In this document: positions 6,066 to 8,784 of the stretch, piece after piece
Numbering within the stretch: position 1 is the stretch's first letter
Layout: every line of letters starts with the position of its first letter
Assembly: GCA_027310305.1 (NCBI GenBank)
Contig: DAIDBD010000029.1
Location: 62,001 to 126,000, forward strand
Length of the DNA: 64,000 nucleotides
Direction: 5' to 3'
DNA from: Herminiimonas sp.
GTDB lineage: Bacteria > Pseudomonadota > Gammaproteobacteria > Burkholderiales > Burkholderiaceae_D
Notes under the pieces: generated by a model
Told to the model about the DNA's origin: nothing
The model's database searches: none
Seen by the model: only the letters and a program-made list of their open reading frames with translations
Position numbers and translations under genes: made by a program

Positions 6066-7298
6066 ATGACAAAAGACGCGAAAAACTTGATCGTCGGACT
6101 CGATATCGGCACCTCGAAAGTAGTGGCGGTGGTAGCCGAGGTCATGCCCAATGGCCGGCATGAAGTGATCGGCCTCGGACAGCATGAATCGAAGGGCTTG
6201 AAAAAAGGGGTGGTCGTCAATATCGAGGCGACGGTCGAGTCGATCCAGCGCGCGCTGGAAGAAGCCGAACTGATGGCCGATTGCAAGATCAGGAATGTGT
6301 ATACCGGTATTGCGGGCAGCCACATCCGCAGCTTCAATTCCAGCGGCATGGTCGCGATCAAGGACAAGGAAGTCACCGCGGCCGACGTGGCGCGCGTGAT
6401 CGAAACCGCCAAGGCCGTCAATATTCCGACCGATCAGCAATTGCTGCATACCGTGCCGCAGGAATTCATCGTCGATAACCAGGAAGACGTGCGCGAACCG
6501 ATCGGCATGAGCGGCATCCGTCTGGAAGTCAAGGTGCATATCGTCACCGGCGCGGTATCGGCGGTGCAGAACATCGTCAAATGCATCCGCCGCTGTGGAC
6601 TGGAAGTGTCCGATCTGATTTTGCAGCCGATGGCATCGGCCGATGCGGTGCTGACGCCGGATGAAAAGGAATTGGGCGTGGTACTGATCGACATCGGCGG
6701 CGGCACCACCGACGTGGCGATTTTTACCGAAGGCGCGATCCGGCACACCGCGGTGATCCCGATTGCGGGCGATCAGATCACCAACGACATTGCGATGGCA
6801 TTGCGCACGCCGACTTCGGAAGCGGAAGAAATCAAGCTGCGTTACGGCGTTTCCAAGCAGGTGCTGGCCGACCCGGGCGAAACGCTGGAAGTGCCGGGCC
6901 TTGGCGACCGCGGTCCGCGCGCGCTGTCGCGCCAGGCGCTGGCAGCCGTGATCGAGCCGCGCGTTGAAGAGTTGTTCGCGCTGGTGCATCAAGTGGTGCG
7001 CGAGTCCGGCTATGAAGAAGTGCTGTCGTCCGGCATCGTGCTCACCGGCGGTTCATCGATGATGCCGGGCATGGTGGAGCTTGCCGAAGACATCTTCCTG
7101 AAGCCGGCCCGGCTCGGCACGCCCGAATATAGCGGCCAGCTGGCCGATGTGGTGCGCAGCCCGCGCTATGCGACGGTGCTCGGATTGTTATTGGAAGCGA
7201 AGAAGCAGTATTTGCGCGGTCACATCGTCACGCGGCAGGAAGGCTCGGTCAAGGCGGTGTGGCACAGGATGAAAGAATGGTTTTTGGGGAACTTCTAA
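6066..7298 (+). CDS. ftsA: Cell division protein FtsA
   Basis: FtsA is the actin-like ATPase that tethers FtsZ filaments to the membrane and recruits later divisome proteins. The 410-residue product starts MTKDAKNLIVGLDIGTSK; the phosphate-1 motif is GLDIGTSK, phosphate-2 is LIDIGGGTTDVAIF, and the adenosine motif is VLTGGSSMMPG. The C-terminus HRMKEWFLGNF is the amphipathic membrane-targeting helix. The ATG at 6066 was chosen over an in-frame ATG at 6036 because the family begins just before the first ATPase motif and the upstream start lies inside ftsQ. It is followed by a 301-bp gap with two structured elements before ftsZ. Confidence 0.97.
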   Translation: MTKDAKNLIVGLDIGTSKVVAVVAEVMPNGRHEVIGLGQHESKGLKKGVVVNIEATVESIQRALEEAELMADCKIRNVYTGIAGSHIRSFNSSGMVAIKDKEVTAADVARVIETAKAVNIPTDQQLLHTVPQEFIVDNQEDVREPIGMSGIRLEVKVHIVTGAVSAVQNIVKCIRRCGLEVSDLILQPMASADAVLTPDEKELGVVLIDIGGGTTDVAIFTEGAIRHTAVIPIAGDQITNDIAMALRTPTSEAEEIKLRYGVSKQVLADPGETLEVPGLGDRGPRALSRQALAAVIEPRVEELFALVHQVVRESGYEEVLSSGIVLTGGSSMMPGMVELAEDIFLKPARLGTPEYSGQLADVVRSPRYATVLGLLLEAKKQYLRGHIVTRQEGSVKAVWHRMKEWFLGNF

Positions 7299-7306
7299 CA
7301 TATTGC

Positions 7307-7430
7307 GGGACAGAGTTTGTAAGGGCGAGCCGGGGTTCCAAGCGGCATGCCGCTTGCCGGCGCAGCGGCACTAGCTTGCAAGCTAGTGCGCGCACTGCAA
7401 GTGCCGCAGCGCGCCGGCTACTCTGTCCCC
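7307..7430. mobile_element. MITE-like foldback element between ftsA and ftsZ
   Basis: A 124-bp stretch is bounded by a perfect 10-bp terminal inverted repeat, GGGACAGAGT (7307-7316) and ACTCTGTCCC (7421-7430). Inside it, arms of the form CCGGCGCAGCGGCAC and GTGCCGCAGCGCGCCGG pair almost completely around a perfect 18-bp palindrome ACTAGCTTGCAAGCTAGT. No transposase frame is present and I see no clear target-site duplication. It could be a miniature transposable element or a long RNA hairpin. Copy number elsewhere in the genome would decide. Confidence 0.5.
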
Positions 7431-7530
7431 AACACTATAGAAAAATGCGGGAAGGACCCAGCGCAGTAACGTCCTGTCTTTCACATATTTGAAGCAAAGC
7501 GAAGCAATGGTTTTGTTTAACCCGCAGTTG

Positions 7531-7580
7531 GCAGTTGCTAGTCGTCACGCAAAGCGTGATGCCTATCGACTGAAAACTGC
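7531..7580 (+). promoter_or_regulatory. Imperfect stem-loop just upstream of the ftsZ ribosome binding site
   Basis: The outer arms GCAGTT...GTCG (7531-7544) and CGAC...AACTGC (7567-7580) pair with a central mismatch, and the apex is a perfect hairpin TCACGC-AAA-GCGTGA (7545-7559). A 7-nt tandem repeat GCAGTTG occurs at 7524-7530 and 7531-7537, so the right arm has two possible partners. The structure ends 5 nt before the AAAGAGGAG ribosome binding site of ftsZ. A role in ftsZ mRNA stability or translation is inference. Confidence 0.5.
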
Positions 7581-7599
7581 ACTTTAAAGAGGAGTCATC

Positions 7600-8784
7600 A
7601 TGGAAATCGATATGCTCGATAACGCATCAACAGGTACCGTGATCAAAGTTGTCGGCGTCGGTGGCGCCGGCGGCAATGCGGTGCAGCACATGATCAACAA
7701 AGGCGTCAGCGGCGTCGAGTTCATTTGCGCCAACACCGATGCGCAAGCGCTGAAGCAGTCCAGGGCGCATAACGTCATTCAGATCGGCGAAACCGGTCTG
7801 GGGGCAGGCATGAAGCCCGCCATCGGCCGTCAGCTGGCGGAAGAATCGCGCTCGCGCATTGAAGATGCCTTGCGCGGCGCGCACATGGTATTCATCGCCG
7901 CCGGCATGGGCGGCGGCACCGGCACCGGCGCCGCGCCGATCGTCGCGCAAATCGCCAAGGAGCAGGGCGCGCTGACGGTGGCCGTGGTATCCAAGCCGTT
8001 CTCGTACGAAGGCCAGAAGTGCATGGATATCGCCGATGAAGGGCTGGAAGCGCTGGGCCAGCATGTCGACTCGCTGATCATCATTCTCAACGAAAAACTC
8101 GAAGAGATTTACGAAGACGACAGCATGATCGAATGGCTGCAGCATGCCGACGACGTGCTCAACAATGCGGTCGCCGGCATCGCCGAGATCATCAATGTGC
8201 CGGGCCACATCAACGTCGATTTCAACGACGTCAAAACCATCATGGGCGAGCAGGGCAAGGCGATGATGGGAACCGCTACCGCATCCGGCGTCGATCGCGC
8301 GCGCATCGCGGCCGAGCAGGCAGTCGCATCGCCGCTGCTCGATGGCATCGATCTGTCCGGCGCGCGCGGCGTGCTGGTCAATGTCACCGCCAGCCGCAAC
8401 CTGAAGGGCAAGGAAATCAAGGAAGTCATGGCGACCGTCCGCGCTTTCGCCGCAGCCGATGCCTCGATTGCGCAAGGCATCGCGTATGACGATGAAATGG
8501 GCGACGACATTCGCGTGACCGTGGTCGCCACCGGCCTGGGCCGCGCACGCAAGACGGTGCAACTGGTGCAGACGCCGATGATGCGGACCGGTACGCATAA
8601 CGAGCCGATGATCGCCAATGCCGGCATGACGCAAGGCAACGGCCATGCGTCTCCGTCGTTCGAAGGCTTGAAAGCGCCTGCGGTGTGGCGCCGCGAGTCG
8701 GCATCCGAGACGGTGCGCGCATTGGAAAAGAACGGCATGGAAACGTATGACATTCCTGCGTTTTTGCGCAAGCAGGCGGACTAG
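7600..8784 (+). CDS. ftsZ: Cell division protein FtsZ
   Basis: FtsZ is the tubulin-like GTPase that forms the Z ring. The 394-residue protein shows the GTP-binding signature GMGGGTGTGAAP, the N-terminal GVGGAGGNAVQHM motif, the T7 loop region NVDFNDVKTIM, a variable linker (about residues 320-375) and the conserved tail peptide DIPAFLRKQAD that binds FtsA and other partners. The ATG at 7600 follows a strong AAAGAGGAG site. The 301-bp gap upstream, larger than any other in this cluster, suggests that ftsZ has its own transcriptional or post-transcriptional control. Confidence 0.98.
   Translation: MEIDMLDNASTGTVIKVVGVGGAGGNAVQHMINKGVSGVEFICANTDAQALKQSRAHNVIQIGETGLGAGMKPAIGRQLAEESRSRIEDALRGAHMVFIAAGMGGGTGTGAAPIVAQIAKEQGALTVAVVSKPFSYEGQKCMDIADEGLEALGQHVDSLIIILNEKLEEIYEDDSMIEWLQHADDVLNNAVAGIAEIINVPGHINVDFNDVKTIMGEQGKAMMGTATASGVDRARIAAEQAVASPLLDGIDLSGARGVLVNVTASRNLKGKEIKEVMATVRAFAAADASIAQGIAYDDEMGDDIRVTVVATGLGRARKTVQLVQTPMMRTGTHNEPMIANAGMTQGNGHASPSFEGLKAPAVWRRESASETVRALEKNGMETYDIPAFLRKQAD

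Follow-up and report, generated by a model that had tools for sequence, protein, structure and literature searches.

What is the foldback sequence that lies in the intergenic region between ftsA (stop at 7298) and ftsZ (start at 7600) in the 64-kb stretch of Herminiimonas DNA analysed here (the window), and does it act on ftsZ? A preliminary description had taken it for a 124-bp miniature transposable element with 10-bp inverted arms, able to fold almost completely on itself around an 18-bp central palindrome. The location between the two genes was borne out, and both arms were found exactly where they had been placed, GGGACAGAGT at 7307-7316 and ACTCTGTCCC at 7420-7429. They span 123 bp (7307-7429), base 7430 being one C beyond. 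When the foldback strand was folded as DNA, we obtained a free energy of -46.8 kcal/mol (z = -5.7), which none of 200 shuffles equalled. The central palindrome is actually 22 bp long (7368-7389), and that of 18 bp lies off centre (7339-7356). Both are perfect, and together with one other they are the only perfect palindromes in the whole window that reach 18 bp.

As described below, the classification as a miniature transposable element was right in kind, but our results argue for two nested elements rather than one element with 10-bp terminal inverted repeats (TIRs). Copies at unrelated sites and an empty site in a relative had been proposed as signs of mobility, and we found both: many copies in the same genome, and ftsA-ftsZ junctions that are empty. 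The foldback element is thus real and mobile. In addition to the nesting, we recognized longer arms (TTGCGGGACAGAGT and ACTCTGTCCCCAA) and a second hairpin at about 7524-7580, neither of which had been noted before. The parts are as follows.

7303-7316, + strand: left arm of the outer hairpin, TTGCGGGACAGAGT
7317-7324, + strand: outer hairpin left of the insert, TTGTAAGG, delimited by comparison with coreless medium copies in the same genome
7325-7403, + strand: inner three-hairpin module (the insert), 102-bit match to covariance model R1, edges good to about 2 bases
7329-7361, + strand: module hairpin 1, basal stem 7329-7333/7357-7361 enclosing the palindrome 7340-7355, with covariation
7368-7389, + strand: module hairpin 2, the perfect 22-bp palindrome, with covariation
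7393-7403, + strand: module hairpin 3, stem of 4 bp and loop of 3 bases, with covariation
7404-7419, + strand: outer hairpin right of the insert, CCGCAGCGCGCCGGCT, the same in coreless copies
7420-7432, + strand: right arm of the outer hairpin, ACTCTGTCCCCAA
7524-7580, + strand: hairpin upstream of ftsZ, outside the repeat; changes on both sides in 10 of 21 pairs (alignment A3)

The model R1 extends over 7323-7405 in the window. Compared with a coreless medium copy, the composite in the window is about 77 bp longer.

The outer hairpin and the resident Y1 transposase gene

In the genome to which the window belongs (G000; 4.01 Mb, 129 contigs), GGGACAGAGT is present in 42 exact copies, and its reversed control is not found. 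Among the loci fetched, 31 arm pairs were listed, of which about 29 are reliable; of the doubtful ones, one overlaps another pair, and the other shows three mismatches between flanks that do not match. The hairpins range from 32 to 123 bp and form a 32-33-bp class, a 46-47-bp class and a longer one, and nearly all copies have TTGC on one flank and CAA on the opposite flank.

The same genome harbours a Y1 transposase gene of 247 codons, with a PF01797 match at G000:C69:6668-6991. Its product scored 76.7 bits against NF047646 (REP-associated tyrosine transposase), for which the NCBIfam cut-off is 80. The gene is flanked by GGGGTCAGAGT upstream and by ACTCCGTCCCC and ACTCTGACCCC downstream, each differing by one base from the outer repeat arm. 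Y1 genes of this kind are present in 142 of 145 family genomes. We read the flanks at 30 loci, 28 of which could be scored: the motif CTCTG[AT]CCC was located downstream of the gene in 25 and on both flanks in 17, against a chance expectation of 0.004 per 260-nt flank. The motif of the outer repeat and that of the Y1 flanks are the same, with A or T after the G run.

TIRYT genes are described as being flanked by inverted repeats that share GGGGWSAS, with TIR families that are moderately abundant (PMC3733652, PMC6006769). As in the TIRtron/TIRYT system (Di Nocera et al. 2013, PMC3733652), a Y1 gene is flanked here by GGGGWSAS-type inverted repeats, a pattern that GGGGACAG and GGGGTCAG fit, and TIR copies are dispersed through the genome in moderate abundance. 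A difference is that in our case the copies are joined in pairs as oriented hairpins of about 32, 47 and more bp, one of which has taken up a second mobile module. The main text of PMC3733652 does not contain the terms Herminiimonas, Janthinobacterium or Burkholderi. Because the repeat motif flanks a TIRYT-type Y1 gene, the outer family is, judging from sequence, most likely a TIR repeat mobilised in trans by the Y1 enzyme. The outer layer belongs to the TIRYT repeats, an already known kind of element, or varies from them only slightly.

When GTDB genomes were searched with the outer pattern, 14 stretches matched, mostly from Collimonas, Herminiimonas and other Oxalobacteraceae. A further match is to a record with the title Flavobacterium salmonis. 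At what seems to be one and the same junction, named by eye as the end of rpoB, the outer repeat is present in both G000 and G021 in opposite orientations, which suggests independent insertions or an inversion. Longer outer copies at G000:C91:23025-23131 (L034/L046) and G000:C57:30843 (L020) contain an unrelated repeat-like stretch with CGTTCGTCCTGAGTAG, and the outer hairpin may also be host to other inserts.

The inner module and its host repeats

In a plain DNA search of relatives, the interior of the foldback turned up repeatedly in G016, G023 and G040 with no outer arms around it. Of 17 copies, 11 were aligned (A1), leaving out partial copies, a duplicate, a near-duplicate and one with an extra base. 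The alignment displayed four helices in three hairpins, with 99.2% of cells pairing, changes on both sides in 16 of 23 pairs and a covariation of 0.582 as against 0.203 when shuffled. We then examined a second alignment (A2) of 39 copies outside the model, taken from 56 distinct cores among 89 copies after 12 out of register and 5 already in A1 had been dropped. Pairing was 98.6%, both sides had changed in 20 of 23 pairs, and covariation was 0.658 (shuffled, 0.180); some selection for pairing is built into these figures since the copies were found with the model, and slid structures pair at only 33-49%.

With R1, 16 matches were obtained in the window's own genome, where a plain DNA search with the whole element had overlooked the other module copies. 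At no more than 18 candidates scored per genome, 152 of the 245 family genomes, belonging to 32 of the 44 genera, had matches. In a sample of the order, the module was found in 29 of 300 genomes, six of them family members; in a sample of the class the count was 2 of 369, the window's own genome and one weak match. Over the 89 copies, conservation rises from less than 0.7 bit to 1.6-1.9 bits at GGTGnAGC and drops after CTGCAAGgG, and the flanks differ widely. The consensus, GGTGnAGC...CTGCAAGgG, has palindromes near its termini and no terminal inverted repeats. Rfam contains no such family, and a search of it gave nothing at gathering score; sub-threshold matches to M23, MIR9471, BTH_s1 and flavi_FSE were taken as chance. 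In the openly licensed literature on repeats of the family, on TIRYT and on PATEs, we found no description of it. With its length of about 78 bases and its three conserved hairpins, the module would seem to be a miniature element that has not been described before.

The module is found in many surroundings. In the window's own genome, five or more distinct inverted repeats or repeat contexts contain it, with further ones in relatives. When the flanks were scored as inverted repeats, 42 of the 89 copies exceeded the 99th percentile of a control set of 990 mismatched pairs. The remaining 47 fall below this threshold and include the copy in the window, which fails because its arms are short (just 13-14 bp).

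A view of the module as an inserted unit was provided by a MITE of genome G123 with the ends AGAGCGTCTAACAAAATGA. This MITE is 111-112 bp long when empty, 189-190 bp with one module and 267-268 bp with two modules. Three positions are occupied, after GGCAAGG, after GAGTAGG and after GGCAAGGCGG, by module subfamilies that vary between the positions. Filled copies exceed empty ones by a net gain of about 78 bp with no clear target duplication, and the 3' junctions of filled and empty copies are 1-2 bases apart. GCAAGG is present at both edges of some filled copies; because other filled positions are without it, we read this as target similarity and not as duplication. Of 62 copies, 58 have a G immediately before the module and 57 have a purine three bases before it. 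The existence of empty, one-module and two-module forms of a single host MITE makes the module a discrete inserting unit. In inserting into other repeats as a unit of about 78 bp that has no TIRs, it behaves like a PATE.

Other host repeats were also observed. Two more MITE-like families of the window's own genome, with ends TAGAGCGGTTTCC (L147, L149, L151) and GGGGCCGCGCAGCAATAAG (L144, L153), are about 250-300 bp each and carry the module. In G123, a two-module MITE (G123:C2:1114959-1116487) contains an insertion sequence with OrfA/OrfB-like frames that has landed inside a module, and which may be of the IS3 type. The block of the G123 MITE adjoining a module insertion site (L261) may resemble the core of the Neisseria Correia element.

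The search for a mobiliser and comparison with known systems

Single-strand transposition by HUH enzymes is described for IS200/IS605 elements and PATEs (PMC7290912, PMC3119063). We looked for a parent of the module among the Y1 genes of ten genomes and 30 TIRYT loci. No IS200/IS605-type transposon with module-related ends was detected among them. A pattern search for module ends at Y1 loci gave 0 of 24, and no convincing R1 match was obtained at 31 and at 24 Y1 loci, the best scoring 20.6 bits. We found for the module neither a GTAG/GTGG head nor a RAYT gene that it flanks, and do not count it among REP-RAYT systems. G118 and G264 contain RAYT-like genes with different hairpins of their own. 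As no Y1 gene examined is flanked by module ends, any naming of the module's mobiliser is a guess.

The module resembles the PATEs of Haloquadratum (PMC3119063) in the absence of TIRs, the near-terminal palindromes, the lack of target duplication and a non-coding length. PATEs, however, are related to IS605-type transposons present in Haloquadratum, whereas for the module no parent was found and the copies are nested in other repeats. SMR-A, from the same source, is about 110 bp long, has no transposase, makes no target duplication and uses near-terminal palindromes of other elements as targets; unlike the module it has terminal inverted repeats, and the hosts of the module are MITE-like and TIR repeats. 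The preference of SMR-A for the palindromes of other elements is the nearest parallel, by analogy, to the nesting seen here. REP, BIME and REPIN elements with their RAYTs (PMC2817692) share short hairpins, compensatory change and a link to a Y1 enzyme, but no GTAG-type head is established for the module. Correia repeat enclosed elements of Neisseria (PMC5039591) are likewise inverted-repeat elements with a characteristic core and mostly intergenic; their termini are different. What is new here is a PATE-like, nested inner module defined by its fold, which we did not find described in the openly licensed literature.

We consider it probable that the composite arose by nested insertion, that is, from a TIRYT-type outer hairpin into which the inner module inserted independently. 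The outer layer would be a non-autonomous hairpin repeat that has the same ends as the resident Y1 (HUH) transposase of TIRYT type, the enzyme that most likely moved it in trans. The tip of this hairpin would then have been the point of entry for a second miniature element, about 78 bp long. Such an element would insert on the 3' side of a purine-rich target whose last base is G (often GG) and which its own end, CAAGG, resembles, and selection would maintain pairing in its three hairpins and not their sequence. By analogy with PATEs, the module probably moved as single-stranded DNA through an HUH enzyme acting in trans; such transposition fits because there are no TIRs and no duplication, the target resembles the right end and the palindromes are compensated. 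The composite would have entered the ftsA-ftsZ junction or have been inherited there.

The ftsA-ftsZ junction and the competing explanations

FtsZ was found in 39 of 40 genomes, and 22 family loci were fetched for the junction, of which 21 were readable (G020 could not be parsed). The composite is present in two of the 21 (G000 and G007) and absent from 17; two others (G002 and G021) retain short relics, recognized by eye. The same combination of outer and inner elements also occurs in G045, near a frame resembling folD, and in G021, near one resembling pyrB (names from translations), and therefore the composite has moved or arisen more than once. A tree of the ftsA-ftsZ pieces from 20 genomes left most of the order of descent open (12 of 17 inner branches), and would fit a single origin of the composite in G000 and G007 as well as separate ones.

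The preliminary description had held that a single copy kept with compensatory changes in all relatives would point to a structured RNA. Two observations speak for a structured RNA that is retained at ftsZ and regulates it: compensatory change is indeed very strong in the interior, and the composite stands at the same place in G000 and G007. On the other hand, the element is multicopy and lies at unrelated loci, and those 17 family junctions are without it. Nor is there an excess of sense orientation: among codirectional gene pairs, 4 run with the module and 11 against it (P = 0.12), by a rough open-frame proxy with 32 of 44 copies scored, 7 lying inside a long open frame and the rest being without a scorable neighbour. 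We regard such an RNA as highly improbable; the composite at ftsA-ftsZ is not a conserved ftsZ RNA. It is also quite improbable that the foldback is one ordinary MITE with 10-bp TIRs whose interior is palindromic by chance. The arms, the foldback and the many copies of the arms are all real, but the interior of about 77 bp is missing from medium copies of the outer repeat in the same genome and recurs inside unrelated inverted repeats elsewhere. In its simple form, this explanation is ruled out by the existence of filled and empty copies.

The two further alternatives accept a separate module and explain its distribution differently. It could be functional cargo, an RNA or DNA structure such as a terminator, an insulator or a protein-binding site, acquired by MITEs through recombination and kept because it helps the host repeat. 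Its presence in many repeat types, the retention of its structure and the failure to find a mobiliser in the Y1 loci examined would all agree with this. The module is, however, self-contained, about 78 bp long and sharply bounded, and homologous exchange would not readily be expected to place such a unit at three positions in one MITE, in different subfamilies and twice in some copies; we judge this explanation unlikely. Alternatively, the empty copies might have come from ancestrally filled repeats by precise loss of the module, with the GCAAGG direct repeat at both edges of some filled copies serving slippage. Precise deletion could be the source of some empty copies. As a general account it is rather improbable, since filled positions vary and two-module copies exist, so that several gains are still needed. 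Nested insertion remains our preferred explanation for the composite. The points that weigh against it are the Y1 loci devoid of module ends, the shift of 1-2 bases at the 3' junctions, the 47 copies below the flank threshold, precise deletion as a source of some empty copies, the one-base mismatches in the G000 TIRYT flanks and the score of that protein below the NCBIfam cut-off.

Apart from the composite, the hairpin at 7524-7580 lies directly upstream of the ribosome-binding site of ftsZ and is kept in the family with or without the repeat. We aligned it from 17 of the 21 junctions (G001, G006, G008 and G018 were left out). In this alignment 89.1% of cells pair, and RNAalifold independently recovered the same stem. 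The covariation of 0.280, compared with 0.190, was reached by none of 500 shuffles, and one of five measures, further pair types, was reached by 40 of 500; kinship alone can beat shuffles without structure, and slid controls were much lower. No description was found in the openly licensed literature on ftsZ leader structure. From these sequence comparisons, the hairpin is a candidate cis-acting structure of the ftsZ leader.

We detected no promoter-like or terminator-like site at 7200-7620. A transcript running from ftsA into ftsZ is predicted to hold a very stable hairpin formed by the composite, and the suggestion that the insertion could alter ftsZ transcription, through cleavage or reduced read-through, is plausible on the basis of this fold. 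At this junction, the composite would probably be only passive, a stable RNA hairpin in read-through transcripts.

We tentatively propose that the inner module stands for a class of hyperparasitic miniature elements that is new and belongs to Burkholderiales. Its members, about 78 bp long and marked by three covarying hairpins in place of terminal repeats, would transpose as single-stranded DNA, land in the palindromes of other mobile repeats and travel with these; the copy at ftsA-ftsZ would be riding in a TIRYT repeat. Terminal repeats are what usually defines a miniature element; the module is defined by its fold, and is common to several unrelated inverted-repeat families and to most sampled genera of one bacterial family. 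Because one and the same host repeat occurs empty, filled once and filled twice, insertion into palindromes becomes directly testable, as does the search for the enzyme. A striking foldback in the cell division cluster would thereby be explained by stacked mobile elements, and not by gene regulation.
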